A DNA stretch of 64,000 bases. Origin: Selaginella tamariscina (Eukaryota > Streptophyta > Lycopodiopsida > Selaginellales > Selaginellaceae). Both the position numbers and the translations under genes were made by a program. Below, piece after piece: positions 8,999 to 58,431 of this stretch (positions within the stretch are counted from its first letter, which is position 1; every line of letters starts with the position of its first letter). The notes under the pieces were generated by a model. That model made no database searches and was not told the origin of the DNA. It was given only the letters and a program-made list of their open reading frames with translations. The DNA lies in NCBI GenBank assembly GCA_003024785.1, contig PUQB01000183.1, forward strand, positions 124,001-188,000, written 5' to 3'.

Positions 8999-11531
8999 TC
9001 ATTTACTTTGTTGAGATGATGCTAGCAACTCCTGGAATGCTTCATAAAAACATTGAGACAGAAATTCTAAGTCAGGAACAAGTTTCTTCTTCACTAAGAT
9101 TGTTATCTTCATTGTTCCCATGTAACTTGTCATGTGTAGAATTAATCCCTACATTAAGTAGTACATTATTTAAGGTATTAATAATATTTTCTTCTGTGTC
9201 ATATGTTAATTATTTGATTAAAATGTTTAAATATATACATTAGGACAATTAACAAATTAGTTTATAATTAATTAGTATACCTGTGGCAGTAGACCAGAAA
9301 AACAAGGAACCATATATAATATAGGATTTCCTGCAAAGGCCACCTGTTCCAAAGGTCCAACTACATTGGACATTGAGAGTGTTGTATGAAGTGCAGAATT
9401 ATAAGTCATCACTACCCCAACCTGGAAATGTTCAAATAATTTTCTTATTTTATAGGTCCTAAGTAAACTTAATTATTTATATAAATTAATTAAAATATAT
9501 ATATATAATAATGAAGTTTACCTTAGGACCTAGCAATTTCATTAAAGAAGAACCAGCATAGTAACTGAAGGGTGCCTCAAATGAGAGCTTTTTTCTCCTT
9601 GTAATATCTGTTGCTCTTTTAACATACTCTAGTGGGTTATCTAAGCTGTTTGTCATTAATGGGATTAACATATACCCCATATTGTTTCCCCATCTTGCTT
9701 TTGAGCCATATTTCATCATCTCTGATAGCTCCTATATAGTAATATTAATAAATTAAAATTAACATTAAAATATATAAATAAATATTATAATAATATAGAA
9801 ATGTATATTTACCTGCAGGCCTGCTGAAGGTCTTGTGTTCACCATAACCAGCGCTCTCACTCTGACAGCTGGAAAACTAACATTGTTTAAATGTTACTAA
9901 TTGATTAGTAATGTTATTTAGTATTAATTATTAAATACCTATTATTAAAATTGTTAAAAACATTAAGAACTATGTCAATAAAATAATTGACTTACCTGTA
10001 TACTTGTTGTATACAAGTATAAATTTATACATACACGCCTATCCATGTGTTATGACGTATACGAATATGTGTGTGTGTGCGTACTCACACGACCCATGCT
10101 TCTGCTGCATGTGATACTTGAGATATCTCTCGAGGGCAATTGATGTAACTGCCAATAGCACGTCATTTATAGTCTGGAAGAGATAAATAAATAAATAACT
10201 TTCTCTCTCTCTCACACACACGCACACGCACACACGCACACACACGTACTGCATGTGTGGCGTTTCGCACTGTCTTCAAGTCTTCAAATTTGAAGTCCAG
10301 GATGGAGAGTTTACTCGGCTCGTGTTCAACACCACGGTATCCTTTAAGAACGGTCTCACTATCGCTTTGGAAAAACTGCATTACTAAGAACTTAATTATC
10401 TCCGTAATAGAGTACCAAACCACCAGTATCATAGTCCATATTGCAATTAACCCTGAGGAATATCTGCGGAATCCAGCTTTCCTGTAGTATAATTATCAGT
10501 GTGTGTGTGTGTGTGTGTGTCTATATATATATATATATAATAGTTTTATTTAATACGTAGAACTTGGGACTGTTGGAAGCATGTCTGGATTATCAGCCCT
10601 CCTTGTACAAGCCAGAAACAACGACATTAAAGATGTACCATCTGTAACGCATATGTTATATAATGTGTGTTAGATGTACACACCGCACGAACACACGCAC
10701 GCACGCACACATGCACACACACCTCCAAGAGAGTGATGGAAAACAAATATTCCGACTCCCTTAGCTTGTCCATGCTTGAGATTGTTTAAAATATGGATTT
10801 CCCACAGAGGTTTGTTTACATCGAGTCTATAGTTGCTCAACTCGGCAGCATATTCCTCCACAAGATTCGGCGAATCTAGCCAAGATTCTTCAATCTCCGG
10901 AACAATAACATGGTCGTCGATATTCACCTGTAGACAACGTGTGTATGTATATACACACAGTGCTATATGGTGTGTGTATGGACAGGCAATCTCTACACAC
11001 ACGCACACAAACATTCCTATATGCATGTATATGTAAACATATCCATCTAATAGTATGCCAGCCGAATTCCACCTCGGACAGTCCGAGTTCATCTCAAACA
11101 GTTCGACCTCTGACTTACCTGTGTTTTGACCCAACACTCTCTGCCCTTATTGTTGAGCCTCTGAATAAACACACACAGACGTCAATACACACATACATAT
11201 GTGTGTGTGTACGTGCTATGTGTACACACATACGCACACGCACCATGAGACTGCAGAATCGCTTGTGTTTGGTAAGAGTGTTCATTAATTCCTTCTTGCT
11301 CGCCTGCACATCGATTGGCATCTCAAACCCAATTATACATAGAGCTCCGCAGTAAAACTCTGGCTGCATAAACACTCTACCTGCAGGTGTGACTGGTTCA
11401 TCTTCTTCCTCATTGATTTCTTTATTAATCTGTCTAATTCTTTCAAATTTTATTTCATTTCTACTTATTTTCCCATTTCTTTCTTCTTCTATCTCAGATT
11501 TCCTAGTGCGTATACTATTCAGCAGCGACAT
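8999..11531 (-). CDS. WS/DGAT-type O-acyltransferase (WSD family)
   Basis: Members of this family esterify fatty alcohols or diacylglycerol with acyl-CoA at the ER to make wax esters or triacylglycerol. Minus-strand exons are 11531-11244, an uncertain exon near 11130-11040, 10927-10723, 10641 to about 10552, 10481-10250, 10172-10089, 9868-9813, 9731-9522, 9421-9281 and 9148-8999. The catalytic HHxxxDG motif is split by an intron and reads HHSLGDG (10723/10641 junction). Other family landmarks are NKPLWEIHIL, TINDVLLAVT, NTRPSAGLQ, WGNNMGYMLIPL and SMSNVVGP. The start codon at 11531 gives an unusual N-terminus of about 45 charged residues before EEDEPVTPAGR, where family homology begins. The stop is TGA at 8999. 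Family identity is firm. Wax synthase versus DGAT preference cannot be told from sequence, and exon 2 needs transcript evidence. Confidence 0.9.
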
Positions 11532-19261: not shown

Positions 19262-20392
19262 TTAAGCTTTAATAGCCTCAACAATTGAGAAAGGTGTACC
19301 AATATCATAAAAACTAATCCTCTCGAACCCACCGGAAGCAAGCAACGACTCCCACTCTCCGCGGGTGCGTTCGTAGCGTTGGTTATTAAGGAACTGCATG
19401 TCAAGCAGCAAGTGCAGCTCCTTACTCTCGTCCATTACCATGTCGCTTATTATAACTTTGCCATTGTTCTCAAGCGCCTCGTAACAGTTAGCAAGTATCT
19501 TTAATGCGTCCGAGTCCGAAAACATGTGCAAGAAGTTCTGCAAAATCAAATCTCATCTTCAATTTTCTTCCAACTCTTGTCACTAACCTTCATGAAAATT
19601 CCATCTGCAGAAGGTATACTCTCCATTGCATTCCCAGGGACATTCTTCACACCTGATCGAGCACACAATATGAATCAAATAAAAAATGGATGGCAAACCT
19701 ACTTGGATAAGGTTGCGCATTCGCAAATGCCTGAGGAAGGTCAAAGTTGAAGGCTTCAATATGAGGATGAACCTTGACAATCTCAGCGACGAACGATCCC
19801 GTGCCGCCCCGACGTCAACAAGCCTTCTAATGCCTTCAAAGCCGTGGTAGCATCTCATAGTAGCTGTAAATTCGGCGTCCTTCACAGCCACCCTGAACAT
19901 CTCAATGAATTCACCGAACTCGGGATGTGATCTAACGTAACTGCCCGGATCCATACCGTGGGCTCTTATGAATGGGTTTGAATCTCCAGGCATACTGATA
20001 GCACTGTCTATATGTTGCCAGCAGAGCTGGTTTACCTCCGATGTAAAGAACGACAGAATGGGAGCCACAAAGAGGTTGTTGTCACCGCGAACAAGCATCT
20101 CGGACATTGGAGTGAGTCCATAGCGAGAATTACCAGTGTTTAAGGTTAAAACATCCTTAAACACCAGGAACCTCAACAGTCTGTACAGCTTCCCACCTTG
20201 TGGAACATGTCCGTGGAGCTCCAGCTGCTTACTGATGTCCTCCAAGGTCGCTCCCTGTTCGGACTCCGACTTGGAGATTATGTCGAATATGCCCAGCTTG
20301 AGTGCGGCATTCACTGCGAATGGTGCAGCGAATTCCAGTGTAAGGCTCCAGATCTGATTGTATGCTTGCATGCTCTCTCCGGCTTCCGCCAT
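19262..20392 (-). CDS. COMT-like S-adenosylmethionine-dependent O-methyltransferase
   Basis: Plant class II O-methyltransferases methylate hydroxyl groups of phenylpropanoids, flavonoids or related compounds as cytosolic dimers. Minus-strand exons are 20392-19703, 19652-19588 and 19537-19262. The N-terminal dimerisation domain is clear (AALKLGIFDII, KLYRLLRFLV). The SAM site should read VDVGGGTGSF, but a run of four G at 19807-19810 appears one base short. The frame therefore breaks there, and the expected protein (GGTGSFVAEIVKVHPH, FNFDLPQAFANA) continues in another frame. The last exon has NFLHMFSDSDALKILANCYE, where the usual HDWSD catalytic signature is altered although the His is retained, followed by GGFERISFYD. 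The substrate cannot be predicted. The frameshift is either a homopolymer assembly error or a disabling mutation. Confidence 0.9.
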
Positions 20393-22939: not shown

Positions 22940-23581
22940 TTATACAGTTAAATGAGAACGGCAATAAGGACAGGAGCCATTGGTCTGGACCCACTTAGTC
23001 ACACACTGCCTGTGGAAACTATGTCTACAAGGAAGTTTCAACACAATGTCATGGCCGTGCAAAAACGTCTCCAAGCATATCGGGCACTCGGACACGTCCA
23101 GTTCACCCCCTCCATTTCCTTTCTTGTACACTTCTTCTGTGACCAACATTGGCTTTCTCGTCTCATTAACTGGCATCAGCTTTCTCGCTTCCACGTTTCT
23201 TGTATCTCCCCGAAACACCATTAACGCCTCTACAAGATCAAGTATCAAACACGTGTGCGTGCGTGCGCGTGTAAGTTTATATTATTACCTTAATGAAGTT
23301 GCTCGAAGACGGGCTTCAAGACGGATTCGTGCTTCATTTGCTGCTGCTTTCCTGGCTGCATGATCTTCTCTTTGGGATGTATATCGTGCCTGAAGAGTTT
23401 CAAGTGCAGTAGCAACCGCTAATTGCGTCTACAATTGAAATATATATATGAAGAATTATCTATAAAGCTGAGAAATTGTTACAAATATGATACATACTTC
23501 CCGTGATGTACGAGCGGCGGAGCGAGATCTGTCAGAGTAGCTTATTCTCCTTCTACGAGCGAGCTCAACACCAGGAAGCAT
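22940..23581 (-). CDS. RING-H2 finger protein, probable E3 ubiquitin ligase
   Basis: Three minus-strand exons are supported: 23581-23498 (MLPGVELARRRRISYSD), 23428-23289 (an Ala/Arg-rich helical segment including LQARYTSQREDHAARK) and 23229-22940. The last exon carries a complete C-terminal RING-H2 domain: CPIC, then C.HSFH..CV, W and CPYC, eight metal ligands with the H2 pattern. RING-H2 domains recruit E2 enzymes for ubiquitin transfer; the target is unknown. The exon 2/exon 3 phases do not match by one base, so one border or one base is wrong. The stop is TAA at 22940. It is head-to-head with the small plus-strand ORF at 23921, leaving about 340 bp for a shared promoter. Confidence 0.8.
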
Positions 23582-24769: not shown

Positions 24770-24776
24770 TATATAT
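24770..24776 (+). promoter_or_regulatory. TATA box of the CLE preproprotein gene
   Basis: A TATATAT motif lies 49 bp upstream of the CLE start codon, in GC-richer surroundings than the flanking AT-rich DNA. This spacing would give a leader of roughly 15-25 nt. Confidence 0.5.
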
Positions 24777-24818: not shown

Positions 24819-25373
24819 ATGGCGTCTTTTATAGTCTTGAGCTTGCTGCTCCTATCGGCATTTGTATTCGGTTGCCAAGCGAGAATACTCATGGAGCAGG
24901 ATGTTATTCAGGTGCCGCCCAGCGGTCCGAGTCCGGGCGGTAACATGGTAGGCGCTTTCGAAGCCTCGAAGCCCAAAGTCGATTTGCCACCCGGCGGTCC
25001 GAATCCTGTACATAATGAACTAGGCACGTTTGAAGTATCCAAGCCCAAAGTGGTTAGTCCACCATCTGGTCCCAGTCCCGTACACCACGACGTACCTATG
25101 ATGTTTGAAGTATCCAAGCCCAGAGTGGATCTGCCAACGTCTGGTCCCAGTCCCGTACACCACGATATTCCTTTATTGTTCCAAGTGTTCAAGCCCAAAG
25201 TGGATCTGCCACCCTCTGGTCCGAGTCCCGTCCACAACGAGTTGCCCGAGTTGAGAGAAGTTCCTTCTGGACCTGACCCGTTCTACAACTGGGGCGACGA
25301 TCTCCACGAGGTTCCGACGGGTCCCAACCCTCTTCACAACTCCACCCCCTTCCCTAATCCCAGCCACAACTGA
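24819..25373 (+). CDS. Secreted multi-domain CLE-like peptide precursor (seven dodecapeptides plus a partial eighth)
   Basis: CLE genes encode secreted precursors processed to 12-13-residue arabinosylated peptides that signal through CLV1/PXY-type receptor kinases. This intact 184-codon single-exon frame has a clear signal peptide (residues 1-21, MASFIVLSLLLLSAFVFGCQ). CLE-like 12-mers occupy residues 31-42 (QVPPSGPSPGGN), 55-66 (DLPPGGPNPVHN), 79-90 (VSPPSGPSPVHH), 104-115 (DLPTSGPSPVHH), 129-140 (DLPPSGPSPVHN), 146-157 (REVPSGPDPFYN) and 163-174 (HEVPTGPNPLHN). A degenerate tail ends NPSHN. The last two fit the consensus RxVP[ST]GP[ND]PLH[HN] best, and the seventh shares its HEVP start with TDIF. 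Spacers repeat the theme FEVSKP[KR]V, putting basic residues just before each peptide, a likely cleavage zone. Copies 1-5 recur every 24-25 residues. Most plant CLE precursors have one peptide; multi-CLE precursors are known from a few plants and cyst nematodes. An IDA- or PIP-like peptide is a weaker alternative. Confidence 0.85.
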   Translation: MASFIVLSLLLLSAFVFGCQARILMEQDVIQVPPSGPSPGGNMVGAFEASKPKVDLPPGGPNPVHNELGTFEVSKPKVVSPPSGPSPVHHDVPMMFEVSKPRVDLPTSGPSPVHHDIPLLFQVFKPKVDLPPSGPSPVHNELPELREVPSGPDPFYNWGDDLHEVPTGPNPLHNSTPFPNPSHN

Positions 25374-38257: not shown

Positions 38258-39243
38258 TGTCAGAGTTTTATCTGGTGCCACAAAGGCGGCTTGCCAGGTG
38301 CCAACCCTGGAATCCCCTCTCTTGGAAACCCCACGGAACCTGGTAAAGTAACCCATATTAGGAACCCAAGCCTTAGGAAGTCAAACCCCTAGCTGACTAA
38401 GTCCACAAACGAGACTCACCTTGTGAATCAGGATACACGGACTAGCCGAGCTTTAGGTGTCGTTCCTAGCTTGGCGTGGTTGAGGCGGCCGGAGCAAGGC
38501 CTCAACCACTATTTTGCGGAACGTGAACTCGGGCAATGTCTTTGAGCTTGCGGGCAGGTTTTCGGACCAAGGAATCTGACTAACTCCTTGGAAGTGACGT
38601 GCCCCTATCTCAAAGGCAAGATCCTGCCAACGATAAGGATAGTCTAACCCTAGGGTGGGTTGTACCCCTGTCGTGTGGAAGTTTGGGCGGCACAACGGAG
38701 GGTTGCACCTTGACGACACAAGCTTAGCTTGCACCGGTAGGAGGTTAACGAGCTCTCTTTGAACCCAGGAAGCCTCACTACATATACTCTACCTTATTTA
38801 TGTGTGACGGACCCCCCCCCCCCCCCCCTGTTTACCTAAGTGAGTAAGTGGGCTGGCACGGAAATGCCAGCCCTTAGAGAAAATGGTTGTCCTAACCTAA
38901 TCCTAAACCTAACCCCTAGGGGGGGGTTTAGGACGTGGGGTTAGGGCAACCCTAGGGTTAGGTCAACCCTAGGGGTGTCCCTAACCCTTATTTTGACAAG
39001 CTATAATTTGCGAAGAACCCTAACCTGGAACGTCAAAACGGGGGAGGGTTCTCTAAATGGAAGTGCTAGCTTCGCCTAGAGTTTCTTGCAAATACCTAAC
39101 GACACCCGGCCGGACCATCACTAGATACCCAAGTGCACTATGCGGGCCTGTTTCTTCTACATCTAGGGTTCGTCACATAATCCAGTAGGTAACAACAGTC
39201 AAACCCCAAAGTAAAGGGTCGAGTCATAGTAAAAACTATGACA
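38258..39243 (-). repeat. 3' LTR of the 38-45 kb chromovirus
   Basis: This 986-bp LTR contains a poly-C run at about 38811-38828. It also has a telomere-like block (CCTAACCTAATCCTAAACCT and related words) at about 38890-38995. Both have counterparts in the other LTR. Confidence 0.93.
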
Positions 39244-39621: not shown

Positions 39622-42600
39622 TAATTAGTTTGAGACCTTGCCTCAAACTCATTCACCAACTCCATCGCGTTTTGTAGATTCTCCAATGGTTCCCATGTCG
39701 ATTCGCACGCGGATAGCCTTTCCATTTGACGAGATACTCAAACTTACGTTTTCGGTCCATAAACCTTCCTTTTGCCCAATATGGATTCGACTTCGTACTC
39801 CGTACCTTCATGAACCAGCTCAGGGGGCGGACGTAAGTTTTCATATCTTTGCGGATGTTTCTCATCTTTGTGGAATGGCTCGAGCAAATTGACATGAAAC
39901 ACATTGTGTATTGTTCCCAACTCTGGAGGAAGATCCAACTCATAAGCCACTTTCCCTACTTGCTTCACCACCTTGTATGGACCTATGTAGTGCGATAGAA
40001 ACTTCCTCGAAAGAGTCGTTGGAACCTTCAGGTTTTTGGTACTCAACAATACCATATCCCCAACCTGATACTCTACATCCCGCCGATGCTTATCGTACTG
40101 CTGACGATACCTTTCCTGTGCTGCAGCCATCGCTTGACGAGCAGCTTCCCATGTTCGATACAATTGTCCCGTGAACTCTGCTACAGATGGAACTCGATTG
40201 CTATCGTCTTTCGGTAACACCATACTCTGAGGAATACCACCCTTATTCCCAGTTAACACTTCCATCGGGCTACATCCGATTGCAGTGTGTCGAGTTATTG
40301 TAACATATCTCAGCCATATCAAGTGTTCAGCCCAATCAAGTTGATCACCTTGAACATAGCATCTGAGATAGTCCTCGACTTGTCGGTTCACCCTCTCCGT
40401 TTGACCATCAGTTTGCGGATGGTAGCTGTACTGAACTTGAGCATCGTACCAAACTGCTTAAACAATGTTCCCCAAAACTTCCCGTAAACCGAGGATCCGA
40501 TCTGAGATCATGGTTTCCGGTAGTCCGCGCACTCTTATGACTTTGCGGAAGAACAACTTCGCTGCTTGAATTGCATTCACTGTCTCTACAGTTGGAATGA
40601 AATGAGCAACCTTTGAAAACCGATCGACTACCACCATGAGCGCATTAAAACCACAAGATTTTGGCAATCCCATGATAAAGTCCAAAGTAACACTTTGAAA
40701 TGGCCGCTCTGGAATCGGTATACACTGCAACTTCCCAGCTCGTTTTTGCGATCGGCTCTTTACTTGTTGACATGTGGGGCATGTCTTGACATATTTGGCA
40801 ACATCATCTATCATACCCGGCCAATAGAATCCCTGCTTCAACAAAGCCAACGTCTTATGCCTTCCACCATGTCCTGCCAAAGGAACATCGTGATGCTCTC
40901 TTAACAGCCTCTCCCTCCATGTCCCTTCTGGAACATAGAGTCTCTTTTCTTTATAATAAAGAACTCCATCTCGTACCGCAAAATGCGCCTGTTTGAGTGC
41001 ATCCATTCGACTTTCTATTCCTGCTGGAATATTACCATCTCTTCGTAACTGATGAACTTGTTTCCTCTTTGCCACCAGGCTCAAAGCCTCCTTAGCAAAC
41101 TTGTCCTGAGGATACGCCGTCACAAATTCATCCACAAAGTTGAACATGGGTGCTGACATAATCGAAGATGACCCTTCCTACTGAGTGCATCAGCTACCAC
41201 ATTGTCCTTTCCCGCTTTATGTTTGATTTCAGGCTGAAATCGTGCCAACTTCTGCTGCCATCTAGCATACTTCGGCGATAGCTTCGGCTGCGTTTCAAAA
41301 TACCTTAGAGTTACACTATCTGTCCAAACCACAGTACCATGACTTGGAAGATAATGACGCCAATACTCCAAGGAAGCAACAATAGCATACATCTCCTTTT
41401 CGTGAGTAGGCCATCGAGTTTGCGCGGCATCTAACTTCTTCGAGAAAAAGGACACTGGATGTCCTTTCTGTTGCAATACACCACCAATTGCAAAGTCGGA
41501 AGCGTCACATTCTACTTCAAAGGGATCTTCAAAGATGGGCAACTGCAAAACTGGCTCAGAAGAGATAGCCTCTTTGAGTTTGACGAACGCACGTTGGCAC
41601 TCTGGAGTCCAATGCCATGGAATGTTTTCGTAAGATCTGTCAATGGGGCCGCTATTTCCGAGTAACCCTTTATGAATCTTCGGTAATACCCTGTCAGACC
41701 AAGAAATGATCTAACTTCATGCACATCTTTTAAAGTCATCCACTCAGTAATAGCTTGAATTTTCTTTGGGTCCATGGCAACCTCCCCACCTGAGATCAAG
41801 TGTCCCAAGAAATCTATCTTGGTTTGACCAAATGCGCACTTGCTTTCTTTAGCATACAACTGGTTCTCTCTCAACCTCTGAAACACTTTTTCTAAGTGTT
41901 CCACATGTTCTCAATTGTCGAACTGAAAATCAGAATGTCATCAATATACACCACTACGAACTCGTCTAGATAGTCTCTAAACACATCATCCATCATTGTG
42001 CAAAAAGTTGCTGGAGCATTGCACAACCCGAATGGCAAGACTAGAAACTCAAATGATCCATAACGCGTTCGAAAAGCGGTCTTCTCAATGTCATTCTCTG
42101 CTACCCGAATCTGATGGTACCCGATCTCAAGTCTATTCTTGAAAATACTTTGCTTTGATAGTCTATCAAATAAGTCGTCCACTCGTGGAAGAGGATACTT
42201 ATTTTTGATAGTTATCGCGTTCAGCGCTCGATAGTCCACACACATTCGCATCGTACCATCCTTTTTCATTACAAACAAGATAGGTGCACCATACGGTGAT
42301 CGACTAGGTCGAATGTGTCCTCGACCAATCAATTCTGTCAGCTGTCTCTTCAATTACTAACTCTTGAGGATTCAACCGATATGGGGCTCTTGCCGGTGGA
42401 GACGAACCTGGCAAAATCTCTATCTGTGGTCCAACTCGACGTGGAGGTAACTCGGGCGGCAATCTTCTGGCAACACATCCTTAAACATGTTCAAGACTTC
42501 CAAAATAGGTTAGGAACAGATTCTTGACCATCTCCTATTTTGACTTCACCAGTATCCAAAACCATTGCAAGAAACACACGTTCCCGATGTCTAACTGCTT

Positions 42601-44293
42601 ACGCAACTGAGTAAGGTAAGGAACATAGGATTCCAATCCTTATCAGTTAGCGTTTCCATTTGAGCGTGTTTTTCTAATGCTTCTTTATCTGCTGCAAGCG
42701 TGATTCGATTATCTCCGGAACCCCTCATTTCGATTACATGTTTATGGAACCATTCCATACCCAAACAAAGTCAAACCCCGTCATATTCAAGACAACTAAG
42801 TCTAGCTTAGCCTTCCAATCTTTGATTTGGACACTGCCCTTGCTATATTATTAGTATTTTGAGAACCTTTGCCAAAATTGATCTTTATTTCACACATCTT
42901 TATTACATCCAAATTCAATCGACGAGCTAGACTAGTCGATATGAAGTTGTATGTTGCTCCAGTATCGATCATCATTCGGACTCGGTCCCCTCGTATCCTT
43001 CCTGTCAAATATAGCAAAGGGTCAGTTTTGTCTTGAATAGCGAATAAGGCAGGTTGTGTCTGGCACAACATTACCTCTTCTGACTCATCTTCCGGATCTT
43101 CAAGCGTTTCTGGTTCAGCAACTTCCTCTTCTACCATCGCCTTGAAATGTCCTGATTGTTGTGAGGGTGCCGGACACTCTTTAGCAAAATGACCAGGCTT
43201 GTTACAATTATAACATTTCACGACCCCGCCTGCGGAACGCGGGGGAGCAGACTTTGGAGCCGATCCTTTGGTCTGCTGAGGAGGTGGTAACGCCAATGGT
43301 TTCCGAAATCCGGTGGGTCTTGATGTGTCCGAAAACTTGGAACTGCCAACAAAGGGACTTGCACTTCGAATTGATGGCGATTGATCTGGTCGCCTATCAA
43401 ACCTTCTGAACCCAGACTTTGGAGGAAACCTCCTTGGTTTAGGTTTTGCTTCCTCCCCTTTGTACAAGTCTTCTAACGACATGCCATAAGCAACCTTTTG
43501 AGCTGCCTCTTGACATTCCCGATAGCTTGTGGCTTGTACCTTAAGATTCCTCTTCGCGTTTCTCATTCAAGCTAGCCATGAAGCAACTTCGAGCTTCATC
43601 ATCGCTCATATTTGGCACCAATCGCCGTACACTTTCGAATCGATAAACGTGGTCCATAGGACTTCCCCGAACTCCCTGTTGACAAAGTGCCAGGTCAGCA
43701 CGCAATCGCAAACCGAGATCATCCGGCATATACTGCTTTTTGATCTCCTTTTTCATGTGCTTCCAGCTGTTTCGGTATCCACGTTCACCTTCAACAATTC
43801 GCCACCAAGTCTTAGCTTCTTCTTTAAGAAACTGCTTGGCACATGCAACCTTTTCTGTCTTTCTCACGGAAGCAGCCTCGAAATAGCTTTCCATATCATA
43901 CAACCAGTCATCCAAAACCTTGTAATCCTTTGAACCCATGAAATTCGAAGGCTTTACCGGTTTGAATTTACTGGGACCTCCACCAACTACTTCCGTCGAA
44001 GAATCTGATTCAGAGGAACCTGACTCTGAGTCATGCTTCTTCTTTTTTCCGTGTGTCTGGTTGCGGAATCTGGCACTGCGTATTCGTTGGAATCCGAACG
44101 GCAACATTATCGATTCGGTCGTTCAACCCAAACATCCCCTCGAAGTTCGTTTAGGGCATCCATCATTATTTCTCGCCAACCAGGTCGTTGTCTAACCTAG
44201 GGGGTCGACCTGGATCAGCTCATCCATCTCCTCATTTTGAGCCTCTGCGACAGCCCTCTCTGCCTCAGGCTCTGGTTGCTTTCTTTTGCTCAT
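39622..44293 (-). pseudogene. Gag-pol of the 38-45 kb chromovirus, frame-disrupted
   Basis: Gag starts at 44293 (MSKRKQPEPEAERAV) and continues after a frame break with FMGSKDYKVLDDWLYDMESY near 43940-43880. A CCHC knuckle CYNCNKPGHFAKEC lies near 43220-43178. The protease active site is IDTGATYNF (about 42972-42946). Reverse transcriptase has [16 protein letters not shown] and [12 protein letters not shown] (about 41960-41925). RNase H has VECDASDFAIGGVL (from about 41515). Integrase has an HHCC zinc finger (H..H then CPTCQQVK, about 40780) and LDFIMGLPKSCGFNALMVVV. A C-terminal chromodomain reads YLVKWKGYP then TWEPLENLQN, ending at a stop at 39622. Frame breaks occur in gag, reverse transcriptase, integrase and the chromodomain, so the copy as assembled is not functional. 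Confidence 0.92.
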
Positions 44294-44616: not shown

Positions 44617-45585
44617 TGTCAGAGTTTTTACCTGGTGCCACAAAGGCGGCTTGCCAGGTGCCAACCCTGGAATCCCCTCTCTGGAAACCCCACGGAATCT
44701 GGTAAAGTAACCCGTATTAGGAACCCAAGCCTTAGGAACAAACCCTAACTGACAAGTCCACGAACGAGACTCACCTTGTGAATCAGGATACACGGACTAG
44801 CCGAGTTTAGGTGTCGTTCCTAGCTTGGCGTGGTTGAGGCGGCCGGAGCAAGGCCTCAACCACTAGTTCTGCGGAACGTGAACTCGGGCAATCTTTGAGC
44901 TTGCGGCAGGTTTTCGGACCAAGGAATCTGCTAACTCCTTGGAAGTGACGTGCCCTATCTCAAAGGCAAGATCCTGCCAACGATAAGGATAGTCTAACCC
45001 TAGGGTGGGTTGTACCCCTGTCGTGTGGAAGTTTGGGCGGCACAACAGAGGGTTGCACCTTGACGACACAAGCTTAGCTTGCACCGGTAGGAGGTTAACG
45101 AGCTCTCTTTTGAACCCAGGAAGCCTCACTACATATACTCTACCTTATTTATGTGACGGACCCCCCCCCCCCCTTTTACCTAATGAGTAAGTGGGCTGGC
45201 ACGGAAATGCCAGCCCTTAGAGAAAATGGTTGTCCTAACCTAATCCTAAACCTAACCCCTAGGGGGGGGTTTAGGACGTGGGGTTAGGGCAACCCTAGGG
45301 TTAGGTCAACCCTAGGGGTGTCCCTAACCCTTATTTTGACAAGCTATAATTTGAAGAACCCTAACCTGGAACGTCAAAACGGGGGAGGGTTCTCTAAATG
45401 GAAGTGCTAGCTTCGCCTAGAGTTTCTTGCAAATACCTAACGACACCCGGCCGGACCATCACTAGATACCCAAGTGCACTATGCGGGCCTGTTTCTTCTA
45501 CATCTAGGGTTCGTCACATAATCCAGTAGGTAACAACAGTCAAACCCCAAAGTAAAGGGTCGAGTCATAGTAAAAACTATTGACA
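44617..45585 (-). repeat. 5' LTR of the 38-45 kb chromovirus
   Basis: This 969-bp copy of 38258-39243 is 17 bp shorter. Most of the difference is single-base deletions in short runs and a shorter poly-C tract (about 45160-45173). Confidence 0.93.
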
Positions 45586-53471: not shown

Positions 53472-56400
53472 CTAAAGACGAGTTCCACGAGTCTTGGGAC
53501 CTGGTTTAGCAGGATAATGCCGATGAAGGCAGCAACCTTGGAAGAAGCATGGAGTAAGTTGGATGCAGGTTCCTAAGTGCGATCAGTAGGCAAATACCCT
53601 TTCCAATCCACCAAGTATTAGAGTTGGTGGCGATGAAGACGAGAATCAAGGATGGCTGCGACTTCGTACTTAGGTTCAGTGTCAATGACCACAGGAGGGG
53701 GAGGAGAAGAAACATGACCGGGAAGAGAAGAAGGATGATATGGCTCCAACAAGGAGGTGTGAAACACAGGATGAAGTTTCACCGTGGATGGTAACTCGAG
53801 TCGGAAAGCTACAGGATTTACCTTCGCCACGATCCTGTAAGGGCCCAATCGTTGAAAATCCAACTTAGAAGAAGGCCTGTTGGTGCGAATGTGTCGACGA
53901 AGAAGCCACACGAGATCACCAATCTTGTATGTAGGTGCCGGTTGACGGTGAGCATCAGCATGATGCTTGTATCGTTCCTGTGCCTGCTGAAGATGGACCT
54001 GGAGATCATCCTGTACCTGCCGAAGATGCTGAAGACGATCCTGTACTGCAGGAGCGGAAGAAGGAGAAGCGGGAGGAGCAAAGTCAAAACGTGGGTGGTG
54101 GCATGTAAGAGCAAAGAAAGGTGTCTGTCTTGTAGATGCGTGAACGGAGTTGTTGTAGGCAAACTCCGCCATTGGAAAAGGTCCAACTAGTTGTCCTGCT
54201 GGTAATTGATGAAGCAACGAAGATACTATTCCAAGGTCTGAATTGTGCGTTTGGACTGCCCATCGGTTTGTGAGTGATATCTTGAAGAAAGATCCGCTTT
54301 AACCTGTAGACTCCAAAGAAGCTCTCGCCAAAACTTAGACATGAATTGTGGACCTCGATTGGAAACAATGCTCTCAAGAAGACCATGATGTCGAAACACC
54401 TCGCGGATCACCAACTCGGCAGTTGTCTGACCTGTAGCTGTCTTGTTGCAGGGTAGGAAATGAGCCTGCTTAGTGAAACGGTCAACCACCACAAGAACTG
54501 CATCGAATCCACGAGAAGGAGGAAGATCTGTGAGGAAATCCATAGAGATGGATCTCCAAGGAGCAGAAGGAACAGGAAGAGGACGAAGAAGACCAGAGGG
54601 TGCATGATTGGCATCTTCGACCTGCTACAAGTGTCACAACTCCGTACAAACCTCTCCACAAAACCTCGCAACCCAGGCCACCAATAGTTGCAAGTCACCA
54701 ACTCCACTGTCTTGGCCACACCAAAATGTCTTGTAGCCGGGTATCATGACAATCCTGTACCACACGAGTCCTGGAAATACCAACAGGGACGTACAGGAGA
54801 CCTTCTCGGTACAGGAGTCCATCCTGTATGGTGAACAGGTTGTAATCTGGATGGGAGCTGGAGGAAGAGGAACTTGCAACGTCAGGATGAATGTGTGAGA
54901 ACACATTCTTTGCCAAGTCGTCTGTAGCCAACTGCGAACGGACGTCCTGTAGGAGTGTTGAATTTGCTGGAGCCTGATGAACCTGTAGTGCCGCAAGCCG
55001 AAATCGATCAGGACCCAACAACATTGCCTTTGACAGTCAAATGCAGGATCGCCCGGGCTTGGTGCAAGGTAAGAGCGCCTAGACAATGCGTCCGCCTTGC
55101 CATTCTGAAAACCGGGCCTGTAGACGATGACGAAGTCAAAACGTGATAGGAACTCCGCCCACTTAGCCTGTCGCCGACTGAGAACTCGAGCCGTTTGAAA
55201 GTACTCCAGTTCTTGTGATCCGTAAGAACTTGTACAGGATGTGCAGCACTTTCTAGGAAATGCCGCCACTCCTCAAACGAATCCACAATGGCCTTGAGTT
55301 CCTTGTCATGAATCTCGTAATTGATCTCCGCCAACAGGAACTTACGAGAGTGAAAAGCTACAAGATGAAGCAACTTGTCCTCTCCAACTTGCGATAAGAC
55401 GGATCCTACAGCAAAATCCAAGGCATCTGCTTCAATGAAGAAAGGATAAGAAGGGTCAGGATGTGCTAGAATCGGAGCTGTCGTGAAGACGTCCTTGAGT
55501 GTTGTGAACGCATGTTCTGCCTTGTCGGACCAAGAGAAAAGTCCTGTGCGCTTGGTGAGTTTTGTGAATGGATGTACACGCTTGGAGAAGTCCTGTATGA
55601 ACCGCCTGTAGAAGTTTGCAAAGCCAAGGAAACATTGTACATCTCGTACCGACTTGGGCCTCTCCCACTCCACAATGGTCTTCACCTTGTGCATTCCATG
55701 GAAACGCCAGCAGGAGAGACGATGTAGCCCAAGAACTCCACCGAATCCCTATCGGAAAAAACACTTCTCCAACTTCGCGTACAGGCCATGCTCGCGAAGC
55801 CGCTCTAGAACTAGTCGTACATGCTTGTCATGTGCCGCCTGGTCCTTGGAGAAAATCAAGATGTCGTCGAGGTAGATCACCACAAACTGGTCCAAGAAGT
55901 CACGAAAGATGTCGTTCACCATGTGTTGGAACACGGCTGGGGCATTGGTAAGGCCGAAAGGCATTACCGTGTACTCAAAATGTCCATACCTTGTACGAAA
56001 GGCAGTCTTCCACTCATCGCCGGGACGAATCCGTACAAGGTTGTAGGCCCTCGTAAGTCGATCTTCGTGAACACCTTTGCTCCTCGCAGCCGATCGAGAA
56101 GTTCCGGGATCAATGGCAACGGGTACCGATTCCGAATGGTGACTTGATTCAAACCCCTGTAGTCCACAACCAAACGTAAACTCCCATCCTTCTTCTTGAC
56201 AAAGAAGATAGGCGCTCCTGCAGGGGACTTTGAGTGACGAATGAAGCCGGATGCCAAGTTGTCCTCGATGTACTGACGAAGAACCTCCAACTCTGTGGGT
56301 GACAATGCATAAATCGGTCCGAATGGTGGAGTCTTTCCTTCCGCAAGATCAATAGGACAGTCGTAGGACCTGTGAACAGGAAGAACTGCAGCCTTGTGCT

Positions 56401-58431
56401 TGTCAAAAACGTCCTTAAAGTCGTGTACTTGGATGGTAGGGAAGAAGGAGGAGAAGGAAGAAGGAAGGAGAAGGAGATTGAAAAACAGGAGAGTCGGATA
56501 CAGGAAAGGTAGAAGAGGACGTAGGAGTTACTTGAAAGGCAAAAAGGTGGAAAGGAGCAGGATCAGTGGCGAGTTCATGCATGGTAGTGGTAAGAACTCG
56601 GAGAGGAGAAGGAGGGAGCTGTGACTGAAAAAGAGGAAGGATCTTGGGGGTGGAACAGAAGCAGTAACAGAAAGAGCAGGATTGGAAAAAACCTGTGTGG
56701 TGTTGATGAGTGTACAGGATTGGAAGAATCCTGTACAGGAGTCCGTGGTTGCGCAGAGTGGGAAAAGCCTGCGAATGTGCTGACGAATCAACAGGAGGTG
56801 GATCCTGTTGAGGAGGAACCTTCGACACTGATACAGGATTGGAAGAACCCTGTACAGGACACCGCAAACTTACAGGAGTGGAGAGAGCCTGCGGATGTGC
56901 TGAGGAACTGACATGAGGTGAATCCTGTCGAGGAGGAGTCTTCAACACTGGTACAGGAACAGGCACGGTCAATCCTGTAGCTTGTACTGCCTCAGATACT
57001 AAGGATGTATCCTGCACACAGGAAGGTACAGGATTGATCCTAGCTGTGGAGAGGAAAACGTGAGCGTCCTAGACCTCCAGTCGATCTGCGGATTTGCAAC
57101 AACGAACCATGGCATGCCCAAAATGATGGGAGTCGACCGAGTCTTGATCAAGTTGAAGGAAATTGAACAGTTGAATGTGCCATACTGCAGGAGAGAGGTT
57201 CGGTAGCATGGGTAACTGCGCCAGAAGCAATAGACGCCCATCGGCCACCTCTACAGGAACTGCACGCTTCAACTTCACCACCGAAATGCCATGTTGAGTT
57301 GCAAAGTGTCATCCATGAAGCATGCATTTGCACCAGTGTCTAACAAGGCAAACTCCATGAGCTCTCGATTATTAAGATGAATGTGTACAGGAAACTTAAG
57401 TGATGGATGGTATGAGCAGCACCAATGGAGCCTGCACCTACGTCCAACTTCGCGGCTCCTAGACGAAGTGGACATTGGAGTTTTCCGACTGAACTTCAGC
57501 TTCAACTTCACGCGTCTTGAAGTTCCTGGCTTTAATAGGACAATCTGCCACCTTGTGTCCTGCTCCACCACAATACAAGCAGGTTCTCACTGCGACGACG
57601 TTGCTTCTCAGCAGCGGAAAGAGAGCCACGCTTGGATTTCTCAACCTCCATAGGAACTACTCCAGAAGGTGGTGCAGGAACATGTACCACAGCTGCAGGA
57701 TTGGTTTGCAGGAACTGCTGACGGGATCTTTCCTGACGACGCTCGAACAAACGGTTGTCGCAACGAACAGCTTGTTGCATGATCTCCGCTAATGTTTGGG
57801 CATCCGGTAACGTAAGGAGAAGGTCCTTCACGTCATCCCTCAACCCAAAACGGAAGTGTTCGATCAATGCAGTCTCGTCCCATGGAATGTTCGTGCAAAG
57901 TTGCTGAAATTCGGATGCATAGACGGAAGCTGGTCGGGATCCTTGAGTGAGCTTCCGTAACTTCGTGCATGCAGAACGGTACTTATCAGGATCTCCAAAA
58001 CAGGCTTCAAAGGCAGCCACGAAACCTTCAAAGTCTTCCATCAATGGGTCGTCACGCTCCAGCAAGGGGGCAACCCAAGCCCGTGGAGATCCACTTAGTA
58101 AGGATGCCAAAAGACCCACCTTTTGAGCATCAGTCGAGTAGCGCCGTGGTTGCATACGGATCAAGAGCCGGATCTGATTCAGGAAACCTTGGAAATCGGC
58201 ACGATTGCCACTGAACTTCTCTGGCATGCTAACCTTCGGCTCCGAAGAAAAGTTGATGAAGAGGGAACCACCGATGCCTGAGAGAGAGCCTGCGCAGCAG
58301 CCTTGGAGGATGCATCAGCAGCTGCATGTGCCGCATTGGTGGAACCTTGCAGTCGGTGACCACTTGGCGCAAAGTGGCCAGCTCATGAAGTACATTTGGT
58401 GCTCGCGTTGAAAGCGCTCAAAATCAGCCAT
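53472..58431 (-). pseudogene. Gag-pol of the 53-59 kb chromovirus, frame-disrupted
   Basis: Gag opens at 58431 (MADFERFQRE) and, after a frame break, continues as MPEKFSGNRADFQGFLNQIR from 58227 to a CCHC knuckle CLYCGGAGHKVADC near 57595. The protease is FALLDTGANACFMDD (about 57340-57295). Reverse transcriptase has [33 protein letters not shown] and [13 protein letters not shown] (about 55885-55845). RNase H has FFIEADALDFAVGSVLSQVG. Integrase has [39 protein letters not shown] and SRYHSQTDGQS. The chromodomain reads PKYEVAAIL then YLVDWKGY, with a YPAKPGPKTRGTRL tail ending at 53472. Several frames are broken, so it is not functional as assembled. Confidence 0.92.

Follow-up and report, generated by a model that had tools for sequence, protein, structure and literature searches.

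One gene of Selaginella tamariscina carries, within a single small reading frame, seven 12-residue units of peptide-hormone type. As judged from their sequences, units 1-5 stand between CLE and IDA, the degree of IDA likeness depending on the reference set, and units 6 and 7 are assigned to the CLE class. The gene lies in the window (the whole 64,000-nucleotide stretch of DNA analysed, part of contig PUQB01000183.1), its coding sequence is under purifying selection, and paralogues of similar layout occur in the same genome. We put at about even the chance that it encodes a secreted peptide-hormone polyprotein that would release two kinds of ligand.

Precursor layout and unit classes

The leader, MASFIVLSLLLLSAFVFG, is strongly hydrophobic, its 9-residue mean hydropathy (up to 3.3) marking it as a likely signal peptide (Table 1). 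Seven 12-mers follow, beginning at residues 31, 55, 79, 104, 129, 146 and 163 of the 184-residue ORF, at spacings of 24, 24, 25, 25, 17 and 17 residues. Unit 7 stops 10 residues short of the C-terminus, at or near which CLE motifs are expected, and the C-terminus itself is formed by a degenerate eighth unit. With several CLE-like domains in repeats of the 24-35-residue class, the precursor answers to the description of a multi-CLE protein; the first four spacings lie within the range given for legume multi-CLE repeats and the last two below it (PMC5570945; here and throughout, papers are cited for the excerpts available of them). The 24-25-residue period claimed for units 1-5 in the first-pass annotation is therefore present, but octamers of the FEVSKP[KR]V type, which it also described, precede units 2-5 only, with none before unit 1.

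Table 1. Features of the precursor gene, in window coordinates; scores are in bits against the tomato CLE matrix and the IDA matrix.
Feature	Position	Strand	Details
Possible TATA box TATATA	24770..24775	+	consensus only
Multi-unit precursor ORF	24819..25373	+	ATG 24819, stop 25371-25373; 184 aa + stop
Likely signal peptide, aa 1-21	24819..24881	+	from hydropathy; cleavage point guessed
Unit 1 QVPPSGPSPGGN, intermediate, GGN end	24909..24944	+	CLE 12.4; IDA 22.7 with SlIDA11, 15.7 without; 10/12 identical with tomato SlIDA11 PVPPSGPSPIGN
Octamer FEASKPKV before unit 2	24957..24980	+	conserved; possible cleavage side
Unit 2 DLPPGGPNPVHN, intermediate, CLE-leaning	24981..25016	+	CLE 24.5; IDA 17.0 with SlIDA11, 13.4 without
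Octamer FEVSKPKV before unit 3	25029..25052	+	conserved
Unit 3 VSPPSGPSPVHH, intermediate, CLE-leaning	25053..25088	+	CLE 20.0; IDA 18.0 with SlIDA11, 14.3 without
Octamer FEVSKPRV before unit 4	25104..25127	+	conserved
Unit 4 DLPTSGPSPVHH, intermediate	25128..25163	+	CLE 13.8; IDA 15.8 with SlIDA11, 12.2 without
Octamer FQVFKPKV before unit 5	25179..25202	+	conserved
Unit 5 DLPPSGPSPVHN, intermediate, IDA-leaning	25203..25238	+	CLE 21.2; IDA 26.8 with SlIDA11, 22.9 without; 9/12 identical with PVPPSGPSPCHN
Unit 6 REVPSGPDPFYN, CLE, R-type	25254..25289	+	CLE 26.0, IDA 5.0; LPEL before it
Unit 7 HEVPTGPNPLHN, CLE, H-type start	25305..25340	+	CLE 39.7, IDA 6.7
Degenerate eighth unit HNSTPFPNPSHN	25335..25370	+	CLE 8.5; first two residues common with unit 7

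Units were scored with a CLE matrix derived from the tomato set of PMC9670457 (52 CLE motifs, 44 distinct). Of 173 windows, the seven that scored highest in this matrix were exactly the seven units (12.4-39.7 bits), confirming the seven CLE-like 12-mers of the earlier description. The eighth-best window was HNSTPFPNPSHN at 8.5, and the ninth scored -10.7. When the mature part was shuffled 2000 times, the top-scoring window averaged -0.7 and reached 16.9 at most, and windows above 8 numbered 0.03 per shuffle on average and never more than one. Units 1 and 4 (12.4 and 13.8) fall under the highest single shuffle, so that the strength of the result lies in the set of seven and not in each unit alone. 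Pro-4, Gly-6, Pro-9, His-11 and Asn/His-12 of the 12-residue CLE motif are all present in units 2, 3, 5 and 7; the deviations are Tyr at position 11 in unit 6, Gly at 11 in unit 1 and Thr at 4 in unit 4. Arg or His at position 1 combined with Val (or Ala, Ser or Ile) at position 3 is found in units 6 and 7, and units 1-5 have Gln, Asp or Val at position 1 and Pro at position 3.

For the last two units, the CLE consensus noted in the first-pass annotation is borne out by both matrices (Table 1). Unit 6 ends in FYN, and its score of 26.0 is low for a CLE (15.5-41.0 for the tomato motifs left out in turn); the LPEL ahead of it is the counterpart of an FPEL that precedes the CLE unit of the C581 paralogue described below. 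Unit 7 had been labelled TDIF-like. Its HEVP start is indeed that of TDIF, but the closest tomato motif is RRVPTGPNPLHN, identical at 10 of 12 positions, and the likeness to TDIF is partial.

Units 1-5 had been described as divergent CLEs with Pro where Val is usual, an account that is right about the CLE-type multi-unit precursor but incomplete, as it omits the IDA side. Of the tomato CLE motifs (44 distinct), one has Pro at position 3 and three have Ser at position 8; IDA peptides usually have both residues. SGPS, which matches the S[GAV]PS core of IDA/IDL peptides, is present in units 1, 3, 4 and 5, with GGPN in unit 2. Where IDA/IDL peptides continue with [RK][RK]HN after SGPS, units 1-5 carry PVHN, PVHH or PGGN, and for this reason they are not filed as IDA. 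The C-terminal GxGH of PIP/PIPL and CEP peptides is absent from every unit.

The IDA scores were obtained with three reference sets. The first comprised ten distinct motifs, including SlIDA11 (itself intermediate) and excluding SlIDA7, one of 11 tomato IDA motifs; the second omitted SlIDA11; the third omitted SlIDA11 and added SlIDA7, giving 14.3, 12.0, 13.1, 10.8 and 21.7 for units 1-5. On these sets the highest-scoring of the 44 distinct tomato CLE motifs reached 15.4, 12.1 and 11.2, respectively. Without SlIDA11, all of units 1-5 score at least 12.2 as IDA against 12.1 for that best CLE, although unit 4 lies only marginally above it and drops below with SlIDA7 added (10.8 versus 11.2). The IDA score exceeds the CLE score in three of five units with SlIDA11 and in two of five without: across all sets units 1 and 5 favour IDA and units 2 and 3 favour CLE, and unit 4 switches. 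When each unit is matched to its closest individual motif, an IDA-type entry (SlIDA11 or PVPPSGPSPCHN, an IDA-like CLE candidate of the PVPP type) comes first for units 1, 4 and 5 and a CLE for units 2 and 3.

These scores can also be read as those of divergent CLEs resembling tomato CLE14 (HKPPSGPNPNGN) and unconnected with IDA by receptor or descent, and we give this reading a substantial, if less than even, chance. Whichever of the two IDA sets is used, the CLE score is the higher one for units 2 and 3, as it is for three of the five units once SlIDA11 is left out, and restriction to canonical IDA motifs brings all five nearer to CLE. The GGN-ending units resemble HKPPSGPNPNGN (8/12 for unit 1, 9/12 for a unit of the C646 paralogue), units 1-5 share one protein with plain CLEs, and the Marchantia peptide HKNPAGPNPIGN stands on a list of CLE candidates (PMC7552357). 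What the reading accommodates poorly is that the IDA scores of units 1 and 5 exceed their CLE scores in both sets (22.7/15.7 versus 12.4; 26.8/22.9 versus 21.2), and that Pro-3 and Ser-8 are so rare among tomato CLEs.

Sequence constraint and paralogues

Purifying selection was evident between the window gene and a short paralogue on C606, with 11 changes at 92 synonymous sites and 10 at 289 non-synonymous sites (pS 0.12, pN 0.035; Fisher p = 0.0038). Among units 2-5, the 12-mers gave pN 0.167 versus pS 0.484 and the upstream octamers pN 0.111 versus pS 0.460, the pairs not being independent in either comparison. As its pN/pS is like that of the 12-mer, the octamer is as constrained as the motif, and the repeat may really be a unit of 20 residues. 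KP[KR] sits immediately ahead of Val plus motif in units 2-5. Equating FEVSKPKV with the EPIP flank of IDA (F..LPKGV) was dropped as unproven, with shuffle P values of 0.046-0.099 over three IDA sequences. At the DNA level, TRF detected a 75-bp tandem array of 2.8 copies with 83% matches. This repeat is Pro-rich, as would suit a structural cell-wall protein whose repeats merely look like hormones; the presence of two motif classes, the HN/HH ends, the terminal CLEs and the similar order in paralogues make that explanation very unlikely.

Searching the same genome with the window protein returned 22 matching places, which group as the window gene itself, C848, nine short copies (six on C606 and three on C826), C581 with C674, C481, and C646. 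The C848 copy, which has frame breaks, differs from the window by 18 mismatches and 31 gaps in 2352 columns. The idea that it is a paralogous pseudogene was dropped, since over the C848 stretches compared collinearity with the window is kept, at 91.6-98.6% identity per block and with many gaps, as in an allele-like copy. C581 and C674 are near-identical (2 mismatches and 11 gap openings in 2212 columns), C674 being the allele-like copy. Few mismatches and many gaps are common to these allele-like contigs, C848 (L009, L035 and L036) and C581/C674, and sequence errors may account for the frame breaks seen in gene copies of this assembly. Such breaks, found in C848 and in several paralogues, could be taken as signs of a pseudogene or an assembly artefact. 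For the window gene this is extremely unlikely: the excess of gaps over mismatches in C848 is what assembly indels would give, and the window ORF is open and constrained.

Elsewhere in the window, minus-strand features comprise a RING-H2 finger ORF at 22940-23248 (zf-RING_2, E 3.9e-15), an ORF with an O-methyltransferase dimerisation domain at 19583-20389 (E 3.3e-14) and, under the curated cut-off, a piece resembling wax ester synthase/DGAT at 10670-11137. One 337-bp stretch of C848 matches the window twice, at about 38260-38599 and 44617-44950. ORFs at 39744-44107 (minus strand), between the two matches, look integrase- and reverse-transcriptase-like when read by eye, and similar ORFs lie at 53618-58227. 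The 337-bp matches and the ORFs they flank form a probable LTR retrotransposon.

The paralogues have diverged and retain a similar layout, with PP[SA]GPSP[IV]HN-type units first and CLE units last. The C581 gene runs from a leader through ETPPAGPSPIQN, ETPPAGPSPIHN, DTPPAGPSPIHN and LSPPAGPSPIHN to PELREAPSGPDPLHN, and the arrangement of an array followed by PELREAPSGPDPLHN is seen at both C581 and C674. C481 has three PPA[GC]PSPIHN units and then CLE units; C646 has PPSGPNPGG[DN] units and then RDVPSGPNPIHN, after which the frame breaks. The order of array first and CLE last thus recurs at C581/C674, C481 and C646. No convincing leader was found in the ~2.5 kb ahead of the C481 gene, where two weak candidates occur, and a second C481 gene with broken frames lies about 1 kb beyond the first. 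The C481 protein as query found 23 places at E <= 10 in the same genome. Five new places were inspected (three on C636 and those on C1085 and C469; C1083 was left out): the three on C636 carry CLE-like units, and no such frame was found at the C1085 or C469 places. The C636 loci (C636:76149, 198516 and 17392; L049-L051) have two CLE-like units each, for instance RTVPSGANPLHH and RVIPSGPNPVHH, the second being shortened in L050. This genome may be rich in multi-CLE precursors.

Conservation of the 12-mers relative to the spacers, proposed in the first-pass annotation as a check, was found at three places but not throughout. At C581, 41 of 72 motif and 16 of 53 spacer residues are identical (p = 0.0025, aligned residues of alignment A1; p = 0.0001 in alignment A2), and over aligned residues the motif is also better kept in the short copy (p = 0.046) and in the C646 piece (p = 0.026). 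C481 showed no such contrast (39/68 versus 22/46 identical, p = 0.21), and the gaps of the short copy run the other way, deletions having removed 35/84 residues of the motifs and 22/78 of the spacers.

The nine short copies have losses in common, as seen in an alignment of the five intact ones and in the ORF pieces of the others. Unit 2 lacks VHN and unit 5 lacks PSPV; a loss of 29 residues joins units 3 and 4, and one of 17 residues joins units 6 and 7. Units 2-5 are lost as such, and every copy retains unit 1 unaltered. In seven copies the fusion of units 6 and 7 gives REVPSGPNPLHN; the other two end in ..PNPLHI and ..PNPLIT. The ORF is intact in 5/9 copies that lack units 2-5, so the array is not always needed: either it is dispensable in the short copies or these genes have a narrower task. 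The short copies on C606 and C826 sit in duplicated blocks, L027 aligning with the others over ~0.9-4.5 kb at 87-94% identity.

The shared losses in units 2, 3/4 and 5, the fused terminal unit and the five intact ORFs are what would be expected if only the terminal CLE unit or units acted as ligands and units 1-5 were a decaying relic or a spacer. We consider this possible but rather unlikely in view of the unit 1 sequence kept in 9/9 short copies, of pN well below pS among units 2-5 of the window gene, and of the PPAGPSPIHN-type units retained in the diverged C581 and C481 genes. With the first unit plus one CLE, the short paralogues provide a natural deletion series for the array.

Beyond this genome, Pfam gave no match for the precursor or four paralogues, a PDB sequence search none for the precursor, and tblastn against a plasmid collection none. 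At E <= 10, protein searches found no match to the window protein among 180 candidates or to L019 among the 8000 candidates with the most shared words, and alignment A2, likewise scored against 8000, gave five weak matches. The best, P0001 (EukProt, 313 aa, E 0.01), is a multi-unit protein with SGPSPGGN-like repeats and, near its C-terminus, PVPPSGPSPSHN, which is 11/12 identical with the PVPP type. P0002-P0005 (E 0.04 to 9.6) have several CLE-like motifs, and three of them are named as plant proteins. A nematode origin of the DNA (PSGPNPGGN also occurs in papers on root-knot nematode peptides) was rejected, the genome having 26 chlorophyll a/b-binding family matches.

A putative polyprotein with two kinds of ligand

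If the gene does encode a two-ligand polyprotein, the leader would direct the precursor into the secretory route, and the prolines of PPSGPSP and PSGPDP would be hydroxylated. Subtilases process IDA between YLPK and GVPIPP and again behind KRHN, and the Pro at P2 is important for this (PMC13082318). By analogy, subtilase-like proteases may cut ahead of each unit, for units 2-5 probably near the junction of KP[KR] and Val, and a second cut may follow the HN, HH or GN end of each unit. Cleavage at that junction in units 2-5 would yield 13-mers such as VDLPPSGPSPVHN, and two kinds of ligand would be set free together. Units 6 and 7 would serve as ordinary CLE ligands of CLV1/BAM/PXY-type LRR receptor kinases. 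Units 1-5 look like hybrids whose front (PPSGPS) is IDA-like and whose end (P-x-H-N) is CLE-like, and they may be perceived by an LRR-RLK XI receptor, either a CLE receptor at another affinity or a HAESA-like one.

The receptors of CLE and IDA peptides belong to a single kinase subfamily, LRR-RLK XI, and transitional motifs have led to the proposal that the peptides share an ancestor (PMC7552357); the PVPP-type candidate PVPPSGPSPCHN is described there as a CLE/IDA transition. IDA/IDL and PIP genes are reported absent from Selaginella (PMC4526919). A precursor that joins CLE units with intermediates in a single reading frame, among plants said to lack IDA, makes the common-ancestor proposal testable. 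An evolutionary reading that goes further, and that we regard as improbable, is that lycophytes kept or independently evolved IDA-type peptides inside multi-CLE polyproteins, the gene being a living intermediate that co-releases CLE and IDA-like ligands for sister receptors. If true, it would support an origin of IDA signalling by unit duplication and drift within CLE precursors.

Relation to known peptide precursors

The literature searched contained no occurrence of the strings GPSPVHN or GPSPIHN, its coverage not extending to Furumizu et al. 2021 on non-flowering plants, and none of the matches listed for CLE or small secreted peptides names S. tamariscina. Of phrases that pair CLE with IDA, a multi-peptide precursor or a lycophyte, two occur in a single paper, PMC7552357. 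Within the genus, five H-type CLEs are attributed to SmCLE12-15 of S. moellendorffii (PMC4659896), so that one of these Selaginella genes should carry two CLEs.

Multi-CLE precursors had been cited in the earlier annotation as already reported from plants, and legumes, rice and wheat indeed have them (PMC2254619, PMC4526924, PMC5570945). Genes of rice, wheat and Medicago contain two to six motifs (PMC2254619), the Medicago gene of that set being later said to translate one CLE only (PMC4526924); a soybean gene contains six (PMC4526924), and those of Medicago and Lotus contain three to nine domains in 24-35-residue repeats (PMC5570945). MtCLE14, GmCLE37a/b, LjCLE32/33, rice CLE75/76 and wheat CLE30/31 resemble the present precursor in their several CLE domains, with repeats of ~30 or 24-35 residues. 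Their units are reported as CLE motifs, whereas five of seven are CLE/IDA intermediates here, a distinction drawn from descriptions and not from alignment.

Several other peptide families share single features with the gene. IDA/IDL peptides (PIPPSAPSKRHN) have in common with it an x-x-P-P-S-[AG]-P-S core, an HN end and Lys/Arg shortly upstream, but a basic pair occupies positions 9-10 where the present units have Pro-Val, and the EPIP flank match is unconvincing. The CLE/CLEL precursor (PMC4526924) likewise combines two peptide classes; CLEL is not IDA-like, however, and the excerpt mentions no array. PIP2, PIP3 and PIPL1 (PMC4526919) contain two SGPS motifs, and hence more than one SGPS unit as here, but end in GxGH. 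The nearest published kind to units 1-5 is the PVPP-type IDA-like CLE candidate, which shares the PPSGPSP core and the HN/GN end (9/12 identical with unit 5 and 10/12 with unit 1). That type comes mostly from monocots and dicots, with no array mentioned in the excerpt, whereas here the units form an array beside true CLEs in a lycophyte. Multi-CLE precursors as such are known; what is probably new is a mixed array of five intermediate and two CLE units in a lycophyte, a group reported without IDA.
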